Origin: Methyloversatilis discipulorum | GTDB lineage: Bacteria; Pseudomonadota; Gammaproteobacteria; Burkholderiales; Rhodocyclaceae | DNA length: 64,000 nucleotides | Assembly: GCF_000385375.1 (NCBI RefSeq) | Contig: NZ_ARVV01000001.1 | Span: 558,001-622,000, forward strand | Direction of reading: 5' to 3' | Shown: piece after piece, positions 2,362 through 38,533 of the stretch | Position numbering within the stretch: the first letter of the stretch is position 1 | Layout of the letters: every line of letters begins with the position of its first letter | Program-made: the position numbers and the translations under genes | Notes under the pieces: model-generated | The model's database searches: none | The model's input: the letters and a program-made list of their open reading frames with translations, nothing else | Told to the model about the DNA's origin: nothing

Positions 2362-4467
2362 ATGCAAGCCACATTGCTGGTCGAACTGCTGACCGAAGAA
2401 TTGCCGCCCAAGGCGCTGTCGCGCCTGGGCGAGGTGTTTGCCGACGCGGTGTTCAAGGCGCTGGTCGAGCGCAAGCTGGTCGCTGCCGACGCGCGCATGG
2501 ACCGCTACGCCAGCCCGCGCCGTCTCGCGCTGACCGTGCAGGGCGTGACCGACCGCGCGCCCGATGCGGTGGTCGATGAAAAGCTGATGCCGGTCGCCGT
2601 CGCGCTTGATGCCGATGGCAAGCCGACACCGGCGCTGCTGAAGAAGCTGCAGTCCAAGAACATTCCGGCCGAGGCGCTGCCGCAGTTCACCCGTCGCATG
2701 GACGGCAAGAGCGAAACGCTGTTCTACGCGATGACGGTGCCGGGCGCCGCGCTTGACGAGGTGCTGGCCGGCATCGTGCTCGAAGCGCTGAAGAAGCTGC
2801 CGATTCCGAAGCTGATGCGCTGGGCCGACTGCGACTACCAGTTCGTGCGCCCGGTGCACGGTCTGGTGCTGCTGCACGGCGACCGCGTCGTGCCGGGCCA
2901 GGCCTTCGGCCACGCCTCGGGTCGCAGCACGCGCGGCCACCGCTTCATGGGCGAGGGCGAAGTGACACTGGCGAACGCCGACGAATACGCGCGTGCGCTG
3001 TACGAGCGCGGCGCGGTGATGGCGTCCTTCGAGGCACGCCGCGCGCTCATCGTGCAGCGGCTGGCGCACGTCTGCGCCGACATCGGCAACGGCGTGCACC
3101 ACGTCGATGACGCGGCGCTGATCGACGAAGTGACGGCGCTGGTCGAGAACCCGAATGTCTATGTCGCGCAGTTCGAACCGGACTTCCTCGCCGTGCCGCA
3201 GGAATGCCTCATCCTGACGATGAAGGCCAACCAGAAGTATTTCCCGCTGCTCGATGCCAGCGGCAAGTTGCTGAACCGCTTCCTGGTGGTGTCCAACATG
3301 CAGGTGGCCGATCCGCACAACATCGTGTCCGGCAACGAGCGCGTGGTTCGCGCCCGCCTGTCGGACGCGCGCTTCTTCTTCGAGCAGGACAAGAAGACGC
3401 CGTTGGCCGCGCGCATTCCGAAGATGGAGGCGGTGGTCTATCACAACCGCCTGGGCAGCCAGTTCGACCGCGTCATGCGCATCCAGCGTCTGGCCACCGA
3501 CATCGGCGGTCGCCTCGGCGCCGACGTGATGCAGGCGGCGCGCGCCGGCCTGCTGGCCAAGGCCGACCTGATGACCGACATGGTGGGCGAGTTCCCCGAG
3601 CTGCAGGGCGTGATGGGGCGTTACTACGCACAGCACGACGGCGAAGCCGAGGTCGTTGCGCAGGCGGTCGAGCAGCACTACCGCCCGCGCTTCGCCGGCG
3701 ACGCGCTGCCGGATGGCGCCGTCGCGTGTGCGGTGTCGCTGGCCGACAAGATCGACGCGCTGGCCGGCTTCTTCGGCATCGGGCAGATCCCGACCGGCGA
3801 CAAGGACCCGTTCGCGCTGCGCCGCGCCGCGCTCGGCGTGCTGCGTATCCTGATGGAAACGCCGCTGCCGCTCGATCTGGCCGAACTGATTGCCGCCGCG
3901 CGCGGCGGTTTCCGCGCGGGCCAGGTGGGCGAGGGCGACGCGGCGAACTTCGAGGCGCAACTGCTGGACTTCATGTTCGAGCGCCTGCGCAACTTGCTGC
4001 GCGAAGCCGGTCACGATGCGCGTGCGATCGACGCCGTGCTGGCGCTGCGACCGACGCGCGTCGACCTGGTGCCGGCCAAGCTGGCAGCCGTGGTTGCCTT
4101 CTCGGCGCTGCCGGAGGCGCAGTCGCTGGCCGCTGCCAACAAGCGCATCGTGAACATCCTGAAGAAGGCGGACGGCGTGGCGGTCGGTGTCGACGCGGCC
4201 CTGTTCGCCGAAGCCGCCGAGCGCGATCTGCACGCCGCGCTGACGGCGGTGCAGCCGGCGCTGCGTGCCGATCTCGACGCGGGCCGCTACGCCGAAGCAC
4301 TGACCGCACTGGCGCAGCTGCGCGCGCCGGTCGACCGCTTCTTCGACGACGTGATGGTCAATGCCGACGACCTCAAGGTGCGCGCCAACCGCCTCGCACT
4401 GCTGGGCGAACTGGCGGCAGCGATGAATGCAGTGGCCGACATTTCCCGCCTTGAGCTGAAGGACTGA
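2362..4467 (+). CDS. glyS: Glycyl-tRNA synthetase beta subunit
   Basis: Beta chain of glycyl-tRNA synthetase, which carries the tRNA-binding part; about 701 aa. I chose ATG 2362 ([19 protein letters not shown]) because a GGAAGAG stretch lies just upstream and the family begins with this motif; the frame also allows a start at 2329, which would add 11 unusual residues. The C-terminal anticodon-binding region includes the family motif [11 protein letters not shown]. The gap to gmhB is only 4 bp, so translation is probably coupled. Confidence 0.97.
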
Positions 4468-4471
4468 GCGG

Positions 4472-5014
4472 GTGAAGCTCATCATTCTCGACCGTGACGG
4501 TGTCATCAACTACGACTCCGATCAATTCATCAAGTCGCCGCAGGAATGGCGACCGATCGAAGGGTCGATGGAGGCGATCGCGCTGCTGAACCAGTGGGGC
4601 TGGCGCGTGGTGGTGGCGACCAACCAGTCGGGTGTGGGCCGCGGTCTGTTCGACATGGATACGCTGGCCGCCATCCATGACAAGATGCACCGCACGGTGG
4701 CACAGGCCGGCGGCCGCATCGACGCCATCTTCTTCTGTCCGCACGCGGCCGATTCCAAGTGCGCCTGTCGCAAGCCGAAGCCAGGCATGCTGCTGGAGAT
4801 CGCCGAGCGCTTCAATGTTGACCTGAACGACGTGCCGGTGGTCGGCGACAGCCTGCGCGACCTGCAGTCGGCCGTCGCCGCCGGTGCGCAGCCGGTGCTG
4901 GTACGCACCGGCAAGGGCGGGAAGACCGAAGCCGATCCCGAGCTGCCGCCTGGCACGCCGGTTCATGACAACCTCGCCGCCTATGTGCGTGCACTCACGG
5001 TGAATACCGACTGA
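4472..5014 (+). CDS. gmhB: D-glycero-beta-D-manno-heptose 1,7-bisphosphate 7-phosphatase
   Basis: HAD-family phosphatase that removes the 7-phosphate from heptose bisphosphate in the ADP-heptose pathway for LPS core. It is 180 aa with a GTG start. The DxD catalytic pair D7/D9 is present (LDRDGVIN). The zinc-loop ligands C89, H91, C97 and C99 follow the C-x-H-x5-C-x-C spacing of GmhB. The acceptor motif VVGDSLRDL is intact. Its stop overlaps the plsC start in an ATGA junction. This placement between glyS and plsC is common in betaproteobacteria. Confidence 0.95.
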   Translation: MKLIILDRDGVINYDSDQFIKSPQEWRPIEGSMEAIALLNQWGWRVVVATNQSGVGRGLFDMDTLAAIHDKMHRTVAQAGGRIDAIFFCPHAADSKCACRKPKPGMLLEIAERFNVDLNDVPVVGDSLRDLQSAVAAGAQPVLVRTGKGGKTEADPELPPGTPVHDNLAAYVRALTVNTD

Positions 5015-5757
5015 TGCCCTTCGTCCGCTCGCTGCTGTTCTTCGTCTTCCTCTTCGTCATCACGCCGCCGTTTTCGCTGATCGCCATCCTGGCGCGGCCG
5101 CTGCCGCCCCATGTGCGCTACCGCCTGATCGGGTTGTGGACGCATCTGACGATGTTCGCGCTGCGCGTCATCGTCGGTCTGCGCCATCGCGTCATCGGCA
5201 GCGAGAACCTGCCCAAGGGCAAGGCAGTGGTGCTGTGCAAGCACCAGTCGGCGTGGGAAACGATGGCGCTGCAGGTATTCCTGCCGCCGGTCGCCTTCGT
5301 GTTCAAGCGCGAGCTGCTGCGCATACCCTTCTTCGGCTGGGGCCTCGGTTGCATGCCGATGATTGCGATCGACCGCGGCGCCGGCAAGGACGCTCTCAAA
5401 CAGGTCGAGGAGCAGGGCGCTCGCCTGCTCGACCTCGGTTTCTGGGTGACCGTTTTTCCCGAGGGCACGCGCATGCCACCCGGGCACACGAAGCGCTACA
5501 AGATAGGCGGTGCGCGGCTGGCCGAGGTGACCGGTGCGCCGGTGGTGCCGATCGCGCACAACGCCGGCGACTTCTGGAAGCGCAATGCCTTCCTCAAGCT
5601 GCCGGGCGAAATCACGGTGAGCATCGGACCGGCGATCGACACGCAGGGCTTGACGGCGGAACAGATCAACGGGCAGGCTCAAGCCTGGATCGAAAGTGAA
5701 ATGCGCAGACTGTTCCCGCATCACTATGGCTCAAACCCACAGCCCGCAGCAGCTTGA
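5014..5757 (+). CDS. plsC: 1-acyl-sn-glycerol-3-phosphate acyltransferase family protein
   Basis: Membrane acyltransferase that converts lysophosphatidate to phosphatidate in phospholipid synthesis. It is 247 aa with an N-terminal hydrophobic segment (residues 5-30). The catalytic box reads H77-x4-E82 (CKHQSAWETM) rather than the textbook HX4D; this Glu form is common in betaproteobacterial PlsC relatives. The substrate box FPEGTR is at 148-153. It overlaps gmhB by 4 bp, and its 3' end overlaps the next gene. A lysophospholipid or ornithine-lipid acyltransferase role cannot be excluded. Confidence 0.88.
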   Translation: MPFVRSLLFFVFLFVITPPFSLIAILARPLPPHVRYRLIGLWTHLTMFALRVIVGLRHRVIGSENLPKGKAVVLCKHQSAWETMALQVFLPPVAFVFKRELLRIPFFGWGLGCMPMIAIDRGAGKDALKQVEEQGARLLDLGFWVTVFPEGTRMPPGHTKRYKIGGARLAEVTGAPVVPIAHNAGDFWKRNAFLKLPGEITVSIGPAIDTQGLTAEQINGQAQAWIESEMRRLFPHHYGSNPQPAAA

Positions 5758-6502
5758 ATTGGCGCTCGATACGCCGGACAACGCGCCGCCGCAGCCGCGC
5801 GGTCGCCACATCGTGCTCGGTCAGCAGATCATCGAGTACGCACTGCGTCGCAGCCGCCGCAACTCGATCGGCTTTTCCATCGGTGAATCCGGCCTGCGCG
5901 TGACCGCGCCGCACTGGGTGACCCTGCCGCAGATCGAAGAAGCGCTGCGCGAAAAGCAACGCTGGATATTCACCAAGCTGGGCGAAGTGCGTGCCCGTCG
6001 TGCCCCGGTGCGCACCGACTGGCGCGACGGCGCCCGGCTGCCCTGGCTGGGTACGCACGTCATGCTGCGCCTCGGTGACACCTGCGCGCGACCGTTGATC
6101 GACAACGAGGTGCTGCGCCTGCCACTGCCGGCCGACGCCGACCACGACCGCGTGCGCGACGCGGTGTGCGGCTTCCTGCAGCAGGAGGCGCTGGCGCTGT
6201 TCACCCGCCGCGCGACCGAGCTCGGCGCGCGCATCGGTGTGGCGCCCGAACGGGTGGTGCTCAGTTCGGCCAATACGCTGTGGGGCTCGTGCACCGCACA
6301 GGGCGTGATCCGGCTGAACTGGCGACTGATACATTTCTCGCCGGCGCTGATCGATTACGTGATTGCGCACGAACTTGCTCACCTGAAGGAACTGAATCAC
6401 TCGCGCGCGTTCTGGGATACCGTGGCCGCCATCCTGCCCGGTTTCGAGGCGGCGCGGCGCGAGCTGCGCGCGCACCACCCGGGGCGCATCGTCGCCCCCT
6501 AG
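5726..6502 (+). CDS. YgjP-like M48-family zinc metallopeptidase (DUF45)
   Basis: Predicted cytoplasmic zinc peptidase of the YgjP/DUF45 group. The zinc-binding motif HELAHLKELNHS is near the C-terminus, preceded by the family segment LSSANTLWGSCTAQGVIRLNWRLI. The chosen ATG at 5726 overlaps the end of plsC by about 32 bp; a GTG at 5696 in the same frame would add 10 residues, and neither start has a clear ribosome-binding site. About 258 aa. The substrate is unknown. It is the last gene of the glyQ-led run before a hairpin-rich spacer. Confidence 0.88.
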   Translation: MAQTHSPQQLELALDTPDNAPPQPRGRHIVLGQQIIEYALRRSRRNSIGFSIGESGLRVTAPHWVTLPQIEEALREKQRWIFTKLGEVRARRAPVRTDWRDGARLPWLGTHVMLRLGDTCARPLIDNEVLRLPLPADADHDRVRDAVCGFLQQEALALFTRRATELGARIGVAPERVVLSSANTLWGSCTAQGVIRLNWRLIHFSPALIDYVIAHELAHLKELNHSRAFWDTVAAILPGFEAARRELRAHHPGRIVAP

Positions 6503-6660
6503 AATGAAACAGCCCCCTTACTCGCCAGGCACGTACAGGGTCGGCTTCGCACAGCCGACCCGTTTGGCAGGCGCGGCGCAATGCGCCGCACCCCTGCCTC
6601 ACCCCCCGCAAGGGGAAGGTCAGTTCCTTCGGAACGGCCGTGCTGAACTGAAATGAGGAC
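6500..6660 (+). repeat. Hairpin-rich intergenic element with TAGAAT box
   Basis: The spacer between the YgjP-like gene and gloA contains four short stem-loops in a row: 6538-6546 with 6553-6561 (9 bp), 6573-6579 with 6583-6589 (7 bp), CCCC/GGGG around GCAA at 6604-6615, and GTTCC/GGAAC at 6623-6635. A TAGAAT box overlaps the upstream stop codon (6500-6505). The first hairpin could act as a terminator, but it has no T-run. The mosaic looks like a palindromic intergenic repeat, although no second full copy occurs in this window. Confidence 0.5.
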
Positions 6661-6666
6661 TCACAC

Positions 6667-7065
6667 ATGCGCATCCTTCACACCATGCTGCGCGTCGGCA
6701 ATCTCGACCGCTCCATCGATTTCTACACCAGTGTCCTCGGCATGCGCGTGCTGCGCCGCAAGGACTATCCGGACGGCAAGTTCACGCTGGCCTTCGTCGG
6801 CTACCAGGACGAAGCCGACGGCGCGGTGCTCGAACTGACCCACAACTGGGATACCGACAAGTACGACCTCGGCAACGCCTACGGCCACATCGCGCTCGAG
6901 GTCGACGACGCCTACGCCGCCTGTGAGCAGGTGAAGGCGCGCGGCGGCAAGGTGGTGCGCGAGGCCGGCCCGATGAAGCACGGCTCGACCGTGATCGCCT
7001 TCGTCGAGGACCCGGACGGCTACAAGATCGAGTTCATCCAGCGCGGTTCGCAGTCCGCAGGCTGA
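6667..7065 (+). CDS. gloA: Lactoylglutathione lyase (glyoxalase I)
   Basis: Detoxifies methylglyoxal by isomerising its glutathione hemithioacetal to S-lactoylglutathione. It is 132 aa, close to the E. coli length. All four metal ligands fall at the canonical positions H5, E56, H74 and E122, so it should be an active metal-dependent (nickel-type) enzyme. An AATGAGGA stretch before the ATG can serve as ribosome-binding site. It is probably transcribed alone after the hairpin-rich spacer. Confidence 0.96.
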
Positions 7066-7073
7066 GCCTGCCA

Positions 7074-7136
7074 CCGGCAACGCACGTCCGTGAGATATTC
7101 ACGTGGCGTGCGTGCCCTGCAGGTTTAGGTTGCCGG
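7074..7136. promoter_or_regulatory. Nested imperfect palindrome between gloA and the PEP-CTERM gene
   Basis: An outer 8-bp inverted repeat (CCGGCAAC 7074-7081 and GTTGCCGG 7129-7136) encloses an inner one (7081-7086 with 7107-7112, extended with mismatches towards GATAT at 7093-7097). It may be the gloA terminator or an operator or leader structure for the PEP-CTERM gene. There is no T-run. Confidence 0.4.
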
Positions 7137-7164
7137 CTTCCAACATCGGAATCGGAGGTCGGAC

Positions 7165-7818
7165 ATGCGTTCCCACATCATCGCGCTGCTGCTGTCGCTC
7201 GGCGCGTCCCACGCGGCATTCGCTGCGCCGTCGAGTACCTTCGACTCCGGCAATGACGGCTGGACGGTATCCGACACCAATCCGCCCTTCGATTCCTTCG
7301 GCGGCTCCTTCACACCCGACTACGACGAGGAAGGCCAGTTCATCCGCTACACCGATCCGTCGGCGATGAGCTTCTTCTTCGAGGCGCCGGAATCCTTCCT
7401 CGGCGACCTGTCGGGCTACTACGGCGGTACGCTGCACTACAGCCAGACCTTGTCGGTGCAGACGCCGCAGTGGCGCGATGACCCGGACGTGGTGCTGGTG
7501 AACGGCGCGGGTCTCGTGCTGGTGTTCCAGCACGACTACCAGCCGGGCATCGACTGGACCGATTTTACGGTGACGCTGGCGGAGGGTAGCTGGCGCGTGG
7601 GCGGTCTTGGCGGCAGCTTCGCCACCGCCGCACAAATGCAGTCGGTGCTCGGCGACCTGCAGCGCCTGCGCATCCGTGGCGAGTACATCTCCGGGGTGGT
7701 GGAGACGACGGCGCTCGACAACGTCGCCATCACCGCCGTGCCCGAGCCTGCATCGTGGGCGCTGATGCTGTCCGGCGTGGCGCTGGTCGCCGCTGTGGCG
7801 CGGCGACGTTTCGGCTGA
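7165..7818 (+). CDS. PEP-CTERM sorting-domain exported protein
   Basis: 217-aa exported protein. It has a signal peptide (residues 1-22, ending AAFA) and a C-terminal sorting tail VPEPASWALMLSGVALVAAVARRR: PEP motif, one hydrophobic helix, then basic residues, as recognised by EpsH/exosortase systems. The central ~160 residues are acidic and aromatic and resemble extracellular beta-sandwich cargo of this class, with no enzyme motif seen. A GGAGG sequence precedes the ATG. No exosortase gene is in the window. The stop codon touches the stop of the convergent kinase gene with no spacer. Confidence 0.88.
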   Translation: MRSHIIALLLSLGASHAAFAAPSSTFDSGNDGWTVSDTNPPFDSFGGSFTPDYDEEGQFIRYTDPSAMSFFFEAPESFLGDLSGYYGGTLHYSQTLSVQTPQWRDDPDVVLVNGAGLVLVFQHDYQPGIDWTDFTVTLAEGSWRVGGLGGSFATAAQMQSVLGDLQRLRIRGEYISGVVETTALDNVAITAVPEPASWALMLSGVALVAAVARRRFG

Positions 7819-10920
<3,102 letters not shown>

Positions 10921-33913: not shown

Positions 33914-34403
33914 AATCGCGCGTCGCGGCCTCGTGCGCGAGCAGCCAGCGCTTGATGCCGGGCAGAAAGCCCTGCGTCGCGTGCGCGAAGCCGCCCAGTG
34001 CGCCACCCGCCCCGACGACGCGATGACAGGGAATCACGACCGGCAGCGGATTGGCGCCGCAGGCCGCCCCGACGGCGCGCGGCGCGGAGCCGATGCGGCG
34101 CGCCACCTCTCCATAGGTCAGCGTGTCGCCGACCGCGATCTGCTGCATCACCGCCCACACCGCGTTCTGGTGGGCGCTTCCGCCGGGAGCCAGCGGCAGA
34201 TCGAAGCGGTGCCGGGCATCGCGCAGGTAGGCGTCGATCTGGCGTGCGGCTTCGGCCGCCAGTAGCGTGCGCGCCGGTTGCGGCGACTGCGGCGACAGGA
34301 ACTCGATCAGCGTGAGCGCATCGTCCGCCGTGCGGATGCCCAGAGCGAAGCCGGGCGCCGCGATGACCGCGTCCCAGTCGGTCGCGTCGGAGTCCTTCAT
34401 CAT
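33852..34403 (-). CDS. ogt: Methylated-DNA--protein-cysteine methyltransferase
   Basis: 183-aa suicide enzyme that removes alkyl groups from O6-alkylguanine in DNA. The acceptor Cys is C126 in VVIPCHRVVGAGG, with the helix-turn-helix arginine finger region TYGEVARRIGSAPRAVG and the trailing GGFAHATQGFLPGIKRWLL also present. The start codons (two adjacent ATGs, 34403 and 34400) overlap the stop of the upstream gene in an ATGATGA junction. The C-terminal ~20 residues are encoded opposite folB. Confidence 0.95.
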   Translation of the reverse strand: MMKDSDATDWDAVIAAPGFALGIRTADDALTLIEFLSPQSPQPARTLLAAEAARQIDAYLRDARHRFDLPLAPGGSAHQNAVWAVMQQIAVGDTLTYGEVARRIGSAPRAVGAACGANPLPVVIPCHRVVGAGGALGGFAHATQGFLPGIKRWLLAHEAATRDFRLSAIAPALSSRRPDARPS

Positions 34404-34981
34404 TGCGCCTGTCTGGCGCCGAGCAACTGCTGCTTCAGGTCGTCCTGGGTCGGCTTCTGCCCTATCCAGATGGCGAGCAGCGCACGGTAGAAATCATCGC
34501 CCTCGACCGTCTTGCTCACCTCCTTGCCGTCGATCACGGCACGGGTGCCGCGACCGGGCAGCCATTCAAGGCCGATGCGGCTGCCCTTCTTCACCTCCTG
34601 CACCGCCATCAGATCGTCGACGAAAGCGCGGATGCGCGGCTGCATCGCTTCGAATTCCGCCGGCGGCAGATTCTTCTTCATGCCCTTGACCAGCGGTTCG
34701 GTGAACTGCGTTGCGGAAAAGCTCATCAGCGGCACGATCTCGATACGTTTCGGGCCTGCCGCGGCCATTGCCGCGTCCAGACTGTCGGCCGGTGCGCCAA
34801 GGTAGAGCGCGACGGTGTAGGCCTTGATGATGAAGCGCGTGCGCACGCCAGCGCCGTTCAGCTGAAGCGTCGAATCGGACAGGCGTGTCGTCGGATCGAA
34901 ACGCGTGCCTTCGACTTCGATGGCCGTGACGACCGGAGAGAGCATCAACATCGACACGAAACACAATGCGCGCAGATTCAT
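34400..34981 (-). CDS. Chalcone isomerase-like periplasmic protein
   Basis: About 193 aa. A signal peptide (residues 1-19, ending VVTA) precedes a chalcone-isomerase-like fold (EVEGTRFDPTTRL; AYTVALYLGAPADS; GKEVSKTVEGDDFYRALLAIWIG). Bacterial members of this family are exported and of unknown function; none of the plant catalytic context applies. ATG 34981 was picked for the signal peptide; the frame extends to 35077. It overlaps ogt by 4 bp, suggesting one transcript. It is divergent from the Slam-like gene. Confidence 0.83.
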   Translation of the reverse strand: MNLRALCFVSMLMLSPVVTAIEVEGTRFDPTTRLSDSTLQLNGAGVRTRFIIKAYTVALYLGAPADSLDAAMAAAGPKRIEIVPLMSFSATQFTEPLVKGMKKNLPPAEFEAMQPRIRAFVDDLMAVQEVKKGSRIGLEWLPGRGTRAVIDGKEVSKTVEGDDFYRALLAIWIGQKPTQDDLKQQLLGARQAQ

Positions 34982-35180
34982 GGGGACTCCGTCGGGTTCG
35001 GGTCCCGAATTATCCGGCGGACGGGCACCGATCGTGCTCGCGAGATGTGAGAAATGACGGCCTGCTTCAGGAATCAACCTTAATAAGACTTCGCAAGCTA
35101 TTGTTTTTCAATCAATGAAGTGCAATCATCCGACCATTGAGGTCAGTCGGTTGTCGGTCACGCGACAACGAGGAGGGCGC

Positions 35181-36509
35181 ATGCGCGCACAAAAAAGAAC
35201 ACATCCGCTGCTGTTTGCACTGCTGCTGGGCACATCGGTCGCCACGCACGCTCAATCCTTGACCGAACAGGCGGCCGCGCACATCGAAGCCGGTCGCCAT
35301 GCCGCTGCCTACCAGCTGCTGTCTCCGCAGGAGTCGGAGCGGGCCGGTGATCCGCAGTTCGATCTGCTGCTCGGCATTTCGGCGCTGGAGACCGGGCGGC
35401 ATACGCTGGCCGTGTTCGCGCTCGAACGCGTGCTCGCCGTGCAGCCGGACAATGCGCGCGCCCGTGCGGAAATCGGCCGTGCCTATCTGGCGCTCGGCGA
35501 ATCGGTCGGCGCCCGGCGTGAGCTGGAAGCGGTGCGCAATCAGAACGTACCGCCCGAGGTGGCCCGCGCGATCGATCGCCTGCTGTCGGCCATCGATCGG
35601 GCGCCGGACGCAGGCAAGCCGTCCTTCGCCGGTTTCATCGAAGCGGCGGTCGGACGCGACACCAATGTGAATAGCGCCACTTCGCAGAATGCGGTCGCGG
35701 TACCCGGCCTTGGCGCCTTCCTGCTCGACCCTGCCAGCCAGAGTCGCGACGCCTGGTTCAGTGCGCTGTCTGGCGGTGTCAATGCACGCGTGCCGCTGAA
35801 CCGCGAATGGGCTTTCCTCGCCGGCGCTACCGGCGCGGCGCGCTTCAACGGCGGTGAGTCGCGCTTCGACACCACGGCGCTGGACGGCAACGCAGGCGTG
35901 TCGTGGACGCGCGGCGCGAACCGGATCACCGCTGCGCTGCAGCTCGGCATGTTCGAGGTCGATGACGACAAGCTGCGCGACTACACCGGTGGCTCGCTGC
36001 AATGGCAGCACACGCACGATGCGCGCAACCAGACCACCGTATTCGTCCAGCAGAGCCGCCTGCGTTACGAAGGCACGAACGACGTGCGCGACGTCAATCG
36101 CAACATCTATGGCGTCGGTCACGCGCTGGTTCTGCCGAACGATCGCACAATGCTGTTCGGCAGTTTCTACCTGGGCGCCGAAACCGGTCGCAACGATCTG
36201 CCTTCGGGCGTAAACATCGCGGCCAACGACGTGATCGGCTTTCGCGTTGGCGCGCAGCATACGCTGGACGAGCGCTGGATGCTGTTCGGTGCGCTGGCAC
36301 ACGAGGCGCGCGAGTACTCGAATGTCGACCCGATCTTCGCCCGCGTGCGCGACGACAACCTGACCTCGCTTTCGCTGGGCGCGAGCTATGCCTTCGCCAA
36401 GCAGTGGCTGCTTACGCCGTCGGTGTCCGTGGTGCGCAACGACTCCAGCATCAACCTCAACGAATACCGTCGCGGCGTCGCCCAGTTCGCCGTGCGCCGC
36501 ACGTTCTAG
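35181..36509 (+). CDS. Slam-like outer-membrane protein: TPR domain plus DUF560-type beta-barrel
   Basis: 442 aa. The signal peptide (1-23, ending ATHA) is followed by a TPR-type helical domain (about 26-130, IGRAYLALGESVGARRELEAV) and then by ~300 residues of alternating amphipathic strands that end in a terminal Phe (RRTF), as outer-membrane barrels do. The architecture matches surface lipoprotein assembly modifiers, which export folded-barrel substrates to the cell surface. ATG 35181 has AGGAGG just upstream. It is followed 9 bp later by a FecR-domain protein with a TbpB-like C-terminus, the likely substrate. Confidence 0.78.
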   Translation: MRAQKRTHPLLFALLLGTSVATHAQSLTEQAAAHIEAGRHAAAYQLLSPQESERAGDPQFDLLLGISALETGRHTLAVFALERVLAVQPDNARARAEIGRAYLALGESVGARRELEAVRNQNVPPEVARAIDRLLSAIDRAPDAGKPSFAGFIEAAVGRDTNVNSATSQNAVAVPGLGAFLLDPASQSRDAWFSALSGGVNARVPLNREWAFLAGATGAARFNGGESRFDTTALDGNAGVSWTRGANRITAALQLGMFEVDDDKLRDYTGGSLQWQHTHDARNQTTVFVQQSRLRYEGTNDVRDVNRNIYGVGHALVLPNDRTMLFGSFYLGAETGRNDLPSGVNIAANDVIGFRVGAQHTLDERWMLFGALAHEAREYSNVDPIFARVRDDNLTSLSLGASYAFAKQWLLTPSVSVVRNDSSINLNEYRRGVAQFAVRRTF

Positions 36510-36518
36510 GAGAGCGCC

Positions 36519-37916
36519 ATGGCGAAACCCTTCACTCCCGCACGCCTGACGTTCGCCATCGCGCTGGCGTTTCCGCTGCACGCGCTGGCCGATAACGCGG
36601 CGCGTGTCGAATTCACGTCGGGCGACGTGCGCGCGCTGGCGGCCGACGGCAGCAGCCGCGTGCTGGCGCGCGGTGCCCAGGTCGGCAGCGGCGACACCGT
36701 CGACACCGGCAGCGGCCGCGCCCAGATGCGCTTCACCGACGGCTCGCTGGTGTCGCTTCAGCCGCAGACCCAGTTCCGCATCGATCAGTACGCGTTCGCC
36801 GGCAAGCCGGCCGAGGACCGTGGCTTCTTCAGCCTGATCAAGGGCGGTCTGCGCACCATCACCGGTCTGGTCGGCAAGGGCAATCGCAGCAATTACAAGC
36901 TCACCACCTCGGTTGCCACCATTGGCATCCGCGGTACCGAGTTCTCCGTTGTCTACGGCAACAGCATCAACGTGACGACCGGCGATGGCGCGGTCGACGT
37001 CTGCAATGGCGCCGGCTGCCTCACGGTGTCCGATGGGCAGAGTGCCTATGTCGCTGACCAGAGCACGCCGCCGGTCATTACCGAGGTGAAGACCGACCTG
37101 CCGCCGCCTCCGCCGTCGAACAGCGCCAGCCTGACGCCGCCGCAGGGAGATGACACCTTCCTGGTGTCGGAGAACCGCAGCGAGGGCGGTGGGCTGGACG
37201 TGCTGGACGGCTACGCCGGCGGCAGCCTGCAGTCCGGCGACGGCTATTACGTCTATGGCCAGTACGTCGACCAGTACGGTGGCTATGGCGGCGACGTCAT
37301 GCTGGATTCGGCGAGCGCCACCTTCGAGGGCAATGCGCTGGTGTCGGCGTCGAATTCGAATGGCGACATCCAGGCGTCTTCGGTTGCCGAAGCGCATCAG
37401 GACGGCATCATCGGCTGGGGGCGCTGGACCAGCGGTTCGTGCTCCGGCGAATTCGACTGCGCCGGCGACACGCTGCTCGACGTGCATTACATCGCCGGCA
37501 GGCCGACGCCGGATCTGGCCGCGCTGGGCGGCGCCAGCGGCACCTATGCGCTGAGCGGCTACACGACGCCGACCACGACCGGCGGTGCGAGTGGCGGTTC
37601 GGTGAGCGGGTCGATGACGGCCGATTTCTCGGCCTACACGCTCAGCGTCGGCATGAACGTAACGGTCAGCGCCACCACCTTCGGGCTGACCGGCTCGGGC
37701 AGCATCAACAGCGGTACTGCAGCGTTCTCCGGTTCGTTCTCGAACTGCAGCGGGTGTTCGTTCAGCCCGCCCAGCGGCAGTTTCCACGGCTTCTTTGCCG
37801 GTGCAGGCGCCGAGCGCGCGGGCATGGTCTACACCTTCGACAGCGGAATTGGCGGCATCAACAAGGTCAGCGGCGCGGCGGTGTTCACGCAGACTTCGCT
37901 CGGTCTGGGCAACTGA
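36519..37916 (+). CDS. Exported FecR-domain protein with TbpB-like C-terminal barrel (putative Slam substrate)
   Basis: 465 aa. A signal peptide (1-24, ending LALA-like) has no lipobox. A FecR domain (about 28-175: VEFTSGDVRALAADG, VGSGDTVDTGSGRAQMRFTDGSLVSL, TTSVATIGIRGTEFSV) is followed by a Pro-rich linker (PPPPPS) and a Gly/Ser-rich region. The C-terminal ~130 residues have GSINSGTAAFSGSFS and GSFHGFFAGAGAERAGMVY, the pattern of TbpB/HphA-type 8-strand barrels. Three short Cys pairs suggest disulfides. There is no sigma factor beside it, so an anti-sigma role is unlikely. Surface display or release by the preceding gene product is inferred. Confidence 0.75.
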   Translation: MAKPFTPARLTFAIALAFPLHALADNAARVEFTSGDVRALAADGSSRVLARGAQVGSGDTVDTGSGRAQMRFTDGSLVSLQPQTQFRIDQYAFAGKPAEDRGFFSLIKGGLRTITGLVGKGNRSNYKLTTSVATIGIRGTEFSVVYGNSINVTTGDGAVDVCNGAGCLTVSDGQSAYVADQSTPPVITEVKTDLPPPPPSNSASLTPPQGDDTFLVSENRSEGGGLDVLDGYAGGSLQSGDGYYVYGQYVDQYGGYGGDVMLDSASATFEGNALVSASNSNGDIQASSVAEAHQDGIIGWGRWTSGSCSGEFDCAGDTLLDVHYIAGRPTPDLAALGGASGTYALSGYTTPTTTGGASGGSVSGSMTADFSAYTLSVGMNVTVSATTFGLTGSGSINSGTAAFSGSFSNCSGCSFSPPSGSFHGFFAGAGAERAGMVYTFDSGIGGINKVSGAAVFTQTSLGLGN

Positions 37917-37936: not shown

Positions 37937-38533
37937 TCAGAGCGATCCGGCAAAGCTGCGGATGCCGGTCAGCAGCATTTCGACCGCGACCGCACACAGC
38001 AGCAGGCCCATCAGTCGCTCAAGTGCGGAGGTTCCGCGCTCACCCAGCCGGCGGATCAGCGGCCCGGCCGCCAGCAGCACGCAGGCGGTGACCGCCATGG
38101 CCGCGCTCATCGCGCCGGTCCAGGTCCAGAAGCGGTCCGGCTCGCGCGACACCAGCAGCATCACCATGGCCATCGCCGACGGCCCGGCGATCAGCGGAAT
38201 CGCCAGTGGCACGACGAAGGGTTCGCCGCCGGCCCACTCGCCGAACACGCCGGCCGGCTGCGGAAAGATCATGCGCAGCGCAATCAGGAACAGCAGCACG
38301 CCGCCAGCGATGCCGAGCGAGGTCTGCGACAGCTGAAGTAGCTTCATGACCGACTCGCCGGCCCACATGAAGACGAGCAGCGCCAGCCAGGCGAAGAAAC
38401 ACTCCCGCAGCACGACGCGCTGACGCCGCGCCTTCGGCACGTCCTTCAGCAGCACGGTCATGACCGGTGCGTTACCGAATGGATCGAACAGCAGCAGGAG
38501 CAGGATGCTGGCGGAGAGGAAGCTGTCGGACAA
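37937..38533 (-). CDS. MarC-family integral membrane protein
   Basis: 198 aa with six predicted helices. The family motif FDPFGNAPV is in the first helix region and VPLAIPLIAGPSA in the middle. The function of MarC/YhgN proteins is unsettled. No ATG fits: the TTG at 38533 gives an intact first helix, whereas the next Met would remove it. It is convergent with the FecR-domain gene (20-bp gap) and downstream of proA across a strong hairpin. Confidence 0.85.
   Translation of the reverse strand: MSDSFLSASILLLLLFDPFGNAPVMTVLLKDVPKARRQRVVLRECFFAWLALLVFMWAGESVMKLLQLSQTSLGIAGGVLLFLIALRMIFPQPAGVFGEWAGGEPFVVPLAIPLIAGPSAMAMVMLLVSREPDRFWTWTGAMSAAMAVTACVLLAAGPLIRRLGERGTSALERLMGLLLCAVAVEMLLTGIRSFAGSL

Follow-up and report, generated by a model that had tools for sequence, protein, structure and literature searches.

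Organization of the locus

The window examined here is a 64,000-nucleotide stretch of the genome of Methyloversatilis discipulorum (contig NZ_ARVV01000001.1, positions 558,001 to 622,000; coordinates below count from its first letter), and the subject of this study is a two-gene unit within it. A sequence-only reading had described gene 1 as a translocator resembling the surface lipoprotein assembly modifiers (Slam), and gene 2 as a non-lipidated protein combining a FecR domain, suggested as a possible displayed ligand-binding part, with a TbpB-like barrel. Both open reading frames (ORFs) were found at the coordinates given there; they lie on the plus strand, and 9 bases (36510-36518) separate the gene 1 stop from the gene 2 start. 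The features are listed below with the basis of assignment in parentheses (aa, amino acids; T11SS, type XI secretion system; AF2, AlphaFold2; pLDDT, predicted local distance difference test score).

35170..35179, + strand: likely ribosome binding site of gene 1, GAGGAGGGCG (sequence)
35181..36509, + strand: gene 1, Slam/T11SS-like outer-membrane translocon, 442 aa, C-terminal residue Phe (ORF call, PF04575 in homologues, AF2 model)
35259..35600, + strand: TPR domain of gene 1, aa 27-140, helical (PF14559; helices in model)
35622..36506, + strand: 14-strand outer-membrane barrel of gene 1, aa 148-442 (predicted model)
36508..36515, + strand: likely ribosome binding site of gene 2, overlapping the gene 1 stop codon (sequence)
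36519..37916, + strand: gene 2, proposed T11SS cargo of FecR-linker-handle-8-strand barrel layout, 465 aa
36519..36593, + strand: signal peptide of gene 2, aa 1-25, no lipobox (inspection; model helix 7-17)
36594..37088, + strand: FecR domain of gene 2, aa 26-190
37089..37226, + strand: flexible linker of gene 2, aa 191-236 (pLDDT <50 at 192-233)
37227..37508, + strand: handle domain of gene 2, aa 237-330 (strands 240-327; TbpB C-lobe alignments start at about 241)
37509..37907, + strand: C-terminal 8-strand barrel of gene 2, aa 331-463, proposed export signal (model and structural matches)

The start of gene 1 was placed at the ATG at 35181, which is preceded by GAGGAGG; an alternative in-frame ATG lies upstream at 35115. 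Scans for sigma-70 promoters and terminators gave no match.

Gene 1 as a predicted Slam-type translocon

The TPR domain and the C-terminal barrel ending in Phe that had been read in gene 1 were borne out by a PF14559 match (E 8.4e-11), by the last residue, and by an AF2 model (pLDDT 90.6) with 14 long strands within residues 148-441. The best structural matches of this model were CymA and OmpG, and the comparison listed porins (14-strand and other) and TPRs and no Slam; since the TPR-porin fold is also that of an exopolysaccharide exporter, the fold alone does not tell gene 1 from polysaccharide exporters.

Pfam and NCBIfam searches with the two window proteins alone returned TPR and FecR signals and no Slam or Slam-cargo family, which made sets of homologues necessary. 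Among PDB sequences, neither the single proteins nor the full-length profiles found a Slam or a cargo. Gene 1 was aligned with 117 of 120 homologues (A2), and removal of 11 rows under a size limit left the 107 rows of alignment A3. SlipAM (DUF560, PF04575) matched 101 of these at E ≤0.01 and scored above its cut-off in nine of ten homologues checked one by one. The window protein itself gave no SlipAM match in the single-protein Pfam search, among the A3 rows or in the genome search; the homologues P0122 and P0124, 84% identical, scored 21.0 and 27.2 against a cut-off of 22 bits. The expected DUF560 assignment was thus found for the family and not for its window member.

Gene 2 as a predicted T11SS cargo

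By inspection, gene 2 has a Sec-type signal peptide lacking a lipobox, with likely cleavage after ALA, and the FecR domain proposed earlier was recovered as PF04773 at residues 59-159 (E 8.7e-12). The C-terminal barrel, previously matched by eye, was substantiated by the predicted model: eight strands lie within residues 339-463, the block has pLDDT values mostly of 86-97, and structural matches were obtained to TbpB, fHbp, NHBA and HphA, many top matches having the same handle that in gene 2 sits between FecR domain and barrel (about 237-330). In addition, hemophilin was the sole significant PDB sequence match of the C-terminal profile, and NF041636 (slam_lipo) covered the barrel part of homologue P0093, below its cut-off.

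Two alignments describe the gene 2 family, namely A1, which joins the window protein to 102 of 120 listed homologues (103 rows), and A4, comprising 28 of 33 C-terminal pieces picked from the 103. The linkers in the family alignment are 19% Pro. Hemophilins bind haem through histidines of the handle; in the gene 2 family, a His at 323 is kept in at least 90% of A1 rows. Among 140 FecR proteins, obtained by thinning 151 (75 and 76 from the two locus sets described below) by shared 9-mers, only four carried a lipobox-like motif.

The position of an 8-strand barrel at the extreme C-terminus would also suit an ordinary integral outer-membrane domain inserted by the β-barrel assembly machinery (BAM), whose signal is a terminal aromatic residue. 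Against this, the C-termini of most family members are GAAVFKK-like or longer tails without such a residue, up to four units stand in tandem, and the structures matched best are barrels of Slam cargo, many of which bear the same handle; we regard BAM insertion as very improbable.

Pairing of the proposed exporter and cargo across genomes

In the genome searches, a limited number of candidates was scored per genome, and the counts are therefore lower bounds. Among 200 genomes of the window's order (window genome included), the C-terminal profile was found in at least 40 and a gene 1 homologue in at least 86 (E ≤0.001). When the C-terminal matches were grouped by contig and strand into 47 loci, 43 were preceded on their own strand by a gene 1 homologue whose end lay 0.7-3.1 kb ahead of the first unit. 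Three of the four unpaired loci (G137:C64, G114:C21 and G009:C3) lie at contig edges with almost no upstream DNA, and the fourth (G103:C75) is a short piece opposite in strand to another such locus.

The reciprocal view was taken from 80 strong gene 1 loci, the window included (matches at 4.0e-38 or better, weaker ones being excluded). A FecR gene was present in the fetched stretch at 75 of them: in 66 it immediately followed the exporter, in the same orientation and no more than 400 bp away; in 4 it lay directly upstream, in 4 at 0.5-2.4 kb downstream, and in 1 on the opposite strand. No FecR gene was found in the fetched stretch at the other five (L004, L035, L036, L037 and L069); at L069, a FecR-less barrel protein lies 11 bp downstream of the exporter. 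First profiles detected a C-terminal unit in 45 of the 75 FecR partners, and iteration within this small set raised the figure to 60. Because PF04773 has only six matches in the 4.25-Mb window genome, adjacency of FecR to the exporter is not a matter of chance.

A second, partly overlapping set was drawn from the best 80 places (76 named loci) retrieved with two peptide motifs of FecR, the ranking being by similarity to gene 2. The exporter was located directly upstream within 500 bp in 61 of these 76 loci and in the fetched stretch in 69, while a C-terminal unit occurred in 66, a share biased upward by the ranking. The pairing is near-obligate, and the conserved adjacency in related genomes that the sequence-only reading had asked for was observed; the three findings that it had named as fatal (no barrel, no DUF560, no adjacency) were examined, and none refuted it.

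Judged by the assembly titles of the best 80 places, this large exporter-cargo family resides mostly in Betaproteobacteria from environmental assemblies and also in Moraxellaceae. In a phylum-wide sample, 4 of 299 genomes were positive, two of the four outside the window's order.

Two minor observations concern these sets. Loci L105, L136 and L158 come from assemblies titled Limisphaerales, Rhodospirillaceae and Pedobacter, and branch in the exporter tree inside Rhodocyclaceae-like, same-order and Moraxellaceae groups, respectively, reflecting either mis-binning or transfer. At L036:5397-8390 and L037:1-1327, the gene after a related exporter encodes a large protein, which in L036 carries Big_9 domains, and the fetched stretch contains no FecR gene.

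Proposed secretion unit

A two-gene T11SS unit best explains what the computations show, namely the domains of both proteins, their predicted folds, the families to which they belong and the near-obligate pairing of the genes. In this unit, gene 1 would be a Slam-type translocon with a periplasmic TPR domain and gene 2 its dedicated non-lipidated FecR-handle-barrel cargo (probability of about 0.85 for exporter and cargo jointly). Export, its direction and recognition of the barrel are proposed by analogy with known Slams. Gene 2 would pass the inner membrane by means of its signal peptide and be kept unfolded in the periplasm, a task performed by Skp in known systems (PMC8560813 and PMC9090332, which also give the background on HphA); the translocon of gene 1 would then recognise the C-terminal handle-barrel unit and move it through the 14-strand pore to the cell surface, where it would fold.

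Role of the FecR domain

The FecR domain proved to be the most conserved part of gene 2, with a mean pairwise identity in A1 of 74%, compared with 39% for the linker, 42% for the handle and 48% for the barrel. It was single in all 140 proteins. The C-terminal units, present in 116 of the 140, numbered one in 95 proteins, two in 15, three in 4 and four in 2, and FecR was N-terminal to all of them in 116 of 116. Over 107 pairs, exporter distance correlated with FecR distance at r 0.80 and with C-terminal distance at 0.62; the corresponding partial correlations were 0.67 and 0.28, a hint only, since the C-terminal unit is divergent and less well aligned than FecR, which biases the comparison.

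Among the 24 FecR proteins without a C-terminal unit, five lose the 3' end at a contig edge, L137 lacks its 5' end, and L063 is split from a barrel ORF. These seven were kept out of the exporter tree, as were rows that had no exporter longer than 400 aa. The tree, of 120 rows, contained 13 barrel-less FecR partners, requiring 8 changes. As L154 and L155 have a barrel-bearing ORF also in the locus and L003 has a shorter barrel match, about 10 of the 120 exporters are without a detected barrel partner, and at those loci exporter and FecR remain together without it.

Within the proposed secretion unit, two roles were weighed for this domain. In the first, the whole protein would reach the surface or medium, where FecR would bind a ligand or partner. 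In known Slam cargo, the barrel is preceded by N-terminal effector domains that vary, and secretion is described for non-lipidated hemophilins (PMC12282271 and PMC8560813). The gene 2 FecR branch also matches the models of the leptospiral surface proteins Lsa33 and LipL45, far below their cut-offs. However, gene 2 possesses its own handle besides FecR, and a domain that is most conserved and never multiplied, while handle-barrel units are, is unlike a diversifying binder. Display of FecR therefore seems possible, at somewhat less than even odds.

In the second role, FecR would fold in the periplasm and dock on the TPR domain or plug the pore, the Pro-rich linker tethering the exported handle-barrel units at the surface in place of a lipid anchor. 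One N-terminal FecR domain ahead of one to four units, the closer tracking of exporter distance, the retention of FecR by exporters lacking a detected barrel partner, and the disordered linker (192-233) all agree with this arrangement, to which the alignment bias noted above is an objection. We hold it tentatively, as a possibility below an even chance. Conservation, single copy and co-divergence with the exporter are explained by a part acting together with the exporter no less readily than by a displayed binder. Of the original interpretation, the Slam-like translocator, the non-lipidated FecR-barrel protein and their conserved pairing were supported, and FecR as the displayed ligand-binding part was weakened by these features together with the separate handle.

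A further argument for anchoring came from the LapA retention module, which belongs to type I secreted adhesins. Its NCBIfam model (NF033682) matched 102 of 103 A1 rows at E ≤0.001, the window protein scoring 30.1 bits, below the cut-off of 50. The match is not specific to the gene 2 family: two further non-regulatory FecR proteins of the genome matched at E <1e-5 and a third weakly, while its two classical regulators did not, which weighs against the anchor. The gene 2 FecR falls within the non-regulatory branch, of which the retention module seems to be a relative, and retention by FecR in gene 2 is put forward as a hypothesis. LapA likewise has an N-terminal FecR-related domain on a secreted protein, although its secretion system differs.

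A classical anti-sigma function of the FecR/PupR type was also rejected, since gene 2 has a signal peptide and the 103 A1 rows matched four families (E ≤0.001), none of them NF007296; this regulator model does match two other FecR genes of the genome (L083 and L084).

Elsewhere in the window genome, a 266-aa FecR protein (L088, G000:C1:3819626) adjoins large repetitive ORFs that read as adhesin-like. At L063 (G124:C39:185600-199904), a FecR ORF of 155 aa and a four-barrel ORF of 1584 aa overlap by about 13 bases, either a natural split or a broken frame.

Linked GT41 glycosyltransferases

An all-versus-all comparison of neighbouring ORFs revealed one dominant family, a TPR protein, whose representative (the sole member checked singly) contains a Glyco_transf_41 domain (E 7.2e-80). 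A profile derived from 43 of these proteins detected a GT41-type gene at 47 of 140 loci; 45 of the 47 had it on the same strand. In 36 loci it lay no more than 3 kb downstream of FecR, and in 18 no more than 150 bp. It accompanied 45 of the 116 loci with C-terminal units versus 2 of the 24 without. In Azospira oryzae DSM 21223 (L098), for example, exporter (3563-4897), cargo (4911-6257) and GT41 (6286-8460) follow one another; GT41-type genes beside the pair also lie at L043:5311-7494, at L122:6309-8495 and at the remaining 44 loci. PF13844 was also present on at least 14 contigs carrying C-terminal loci in the 200 genomes (among them G132:C46, G118:C94, G023:C9 and G013:C3). As GT41 is common in the order (at least 109 of the 200 genomes), only adjacency is informative. 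No GT41 gene adjoins the window locus. The Ser/Thr content of the C-terminal unit was 0.238 at GT41-linked and 0.215 at other loci (p 0.02 uncorrected), a difference too small to rely on, and N-x-S/T density did not differ (p 0.15).

In the window genome, PF13844 matches occur in a single open frame (41.7 bits) and nowhere else. This frame is some 5 kb away from the genome's other SlipAM-like outer-membrane protein (OMP; G000:C1:1203014-1210865, loci L081 and L001). This OMP had a borderline SlipAM score (23.2 bits in the genome search, 21.5 of 22 in the single check) and adjoins a barrel-less FecR protein and a GT4-type transferase, all on one strand, the GT41 match included.

Such neighbours, found beside a third of loci and at the other OMP, together with the fold common to an exopolysaccharide exporter, raise the alternative that the genes are not a secretion pair: gene 1 would serve as a TPR porin through which a glycan or another small substrate passes, with the FecR protein as an accessory in the periplasm or at the surface. 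We consider this improbable in view of the SlipAM membership, the Slam-cargo barrels recognised by both sequence and fold, and the exporter-barrel adjacency at 43 of 47 loci; moreover, GT41 enzymes modify proteins.

For the secretion unit, the adjacency suggests glycosylated T11SS cargo. HMW1A, HMW1B and HMW1C (adhesin, exporter and GT41) provide a precedent for a cluster of cargo, exporter and GT41 such as occurs in relatives, although the HMW1 exporter and cargo are unrelated to genes 1 and 2, the GT41 of the relatives is TPR-type, and the window locus has none adjacent. A composite proposal, which as a whole we rate as unlikely, is a glycosylated, self-anchoring branch of type XI secretion, in which a periplasmic FecR domain docked on its own Slam would replace the lipid anchor, and one to four handle-barrel units would be displayed, in many species after glycosylation by the linked TPR-GT41.

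Relation to known systems

HsmA-HphA of Acinetobacter baumannii and HrpB-HrpC of Xenorhabdus likewise place a Slam beside a secreted cargo with an N-terminal handle/clamp and a C-terminal 8-strand barrel; known hemophilins, unlike gene 2, are without an N-terminal FecR domain. Gene 2 shares the barrel and handle fold with TbpB, the cargo of Slam1, which comprises two handle-barrel units, and differs from this and the other Neisseria surface lipoproteins in having no lipid anchor and an added FecR domain. The multi-barrel T11SS cargo of Sphingomonas and Psychrobacter described in PMC12282271 resembles the gene 2 family in carrying two or three handle-barrel copies behind an N-terminal extension, but that extension consists of Pro-Thr or PTD repeats and most of the proteins are predicted lipoproteins, whereas gene 2 has a folded FecR domain and is non-lipidated.

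The abstract of that paper places all seven experimentally verified T11SS exporters in the animal-associated cluster 1 and describes cargo outside this cluster as little known. The literature searched, which lay mostly outside subscription papers, yielded no report combining FecR with Slam, T11SS, DUF560, the retention module or a TPR O-GlcNAc transferase, and FecR goes unmentioned in the main text available for PMC12282271, PMC8406197, PMC5449769 and PMC9090332. The FecR-handle-barrel cargo type is not named in that literature, and the family, distributed mostly in environmental bacteria, raises the questions of a folded N-terminal domain in place of a lipid anchor in type XI secretion and of T11SS cargo glycosylation by GT41 enzymes.

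Other neighbouring genes

In the window, the unit is flanked on the opposite strand by genes for a chalcone-isomerase-like protein (34400-35077) and a MarC-like protein (37937-38533), both named from reading the sequences. A CHASE2-cyclase gene occurs near nine loci (one a weak match), upstream in L006, L007, L008, L063, L071 and L072 and downstream on the other strand in L038 and L061, and is a possible sensor partner of the exporter-FecR pair.
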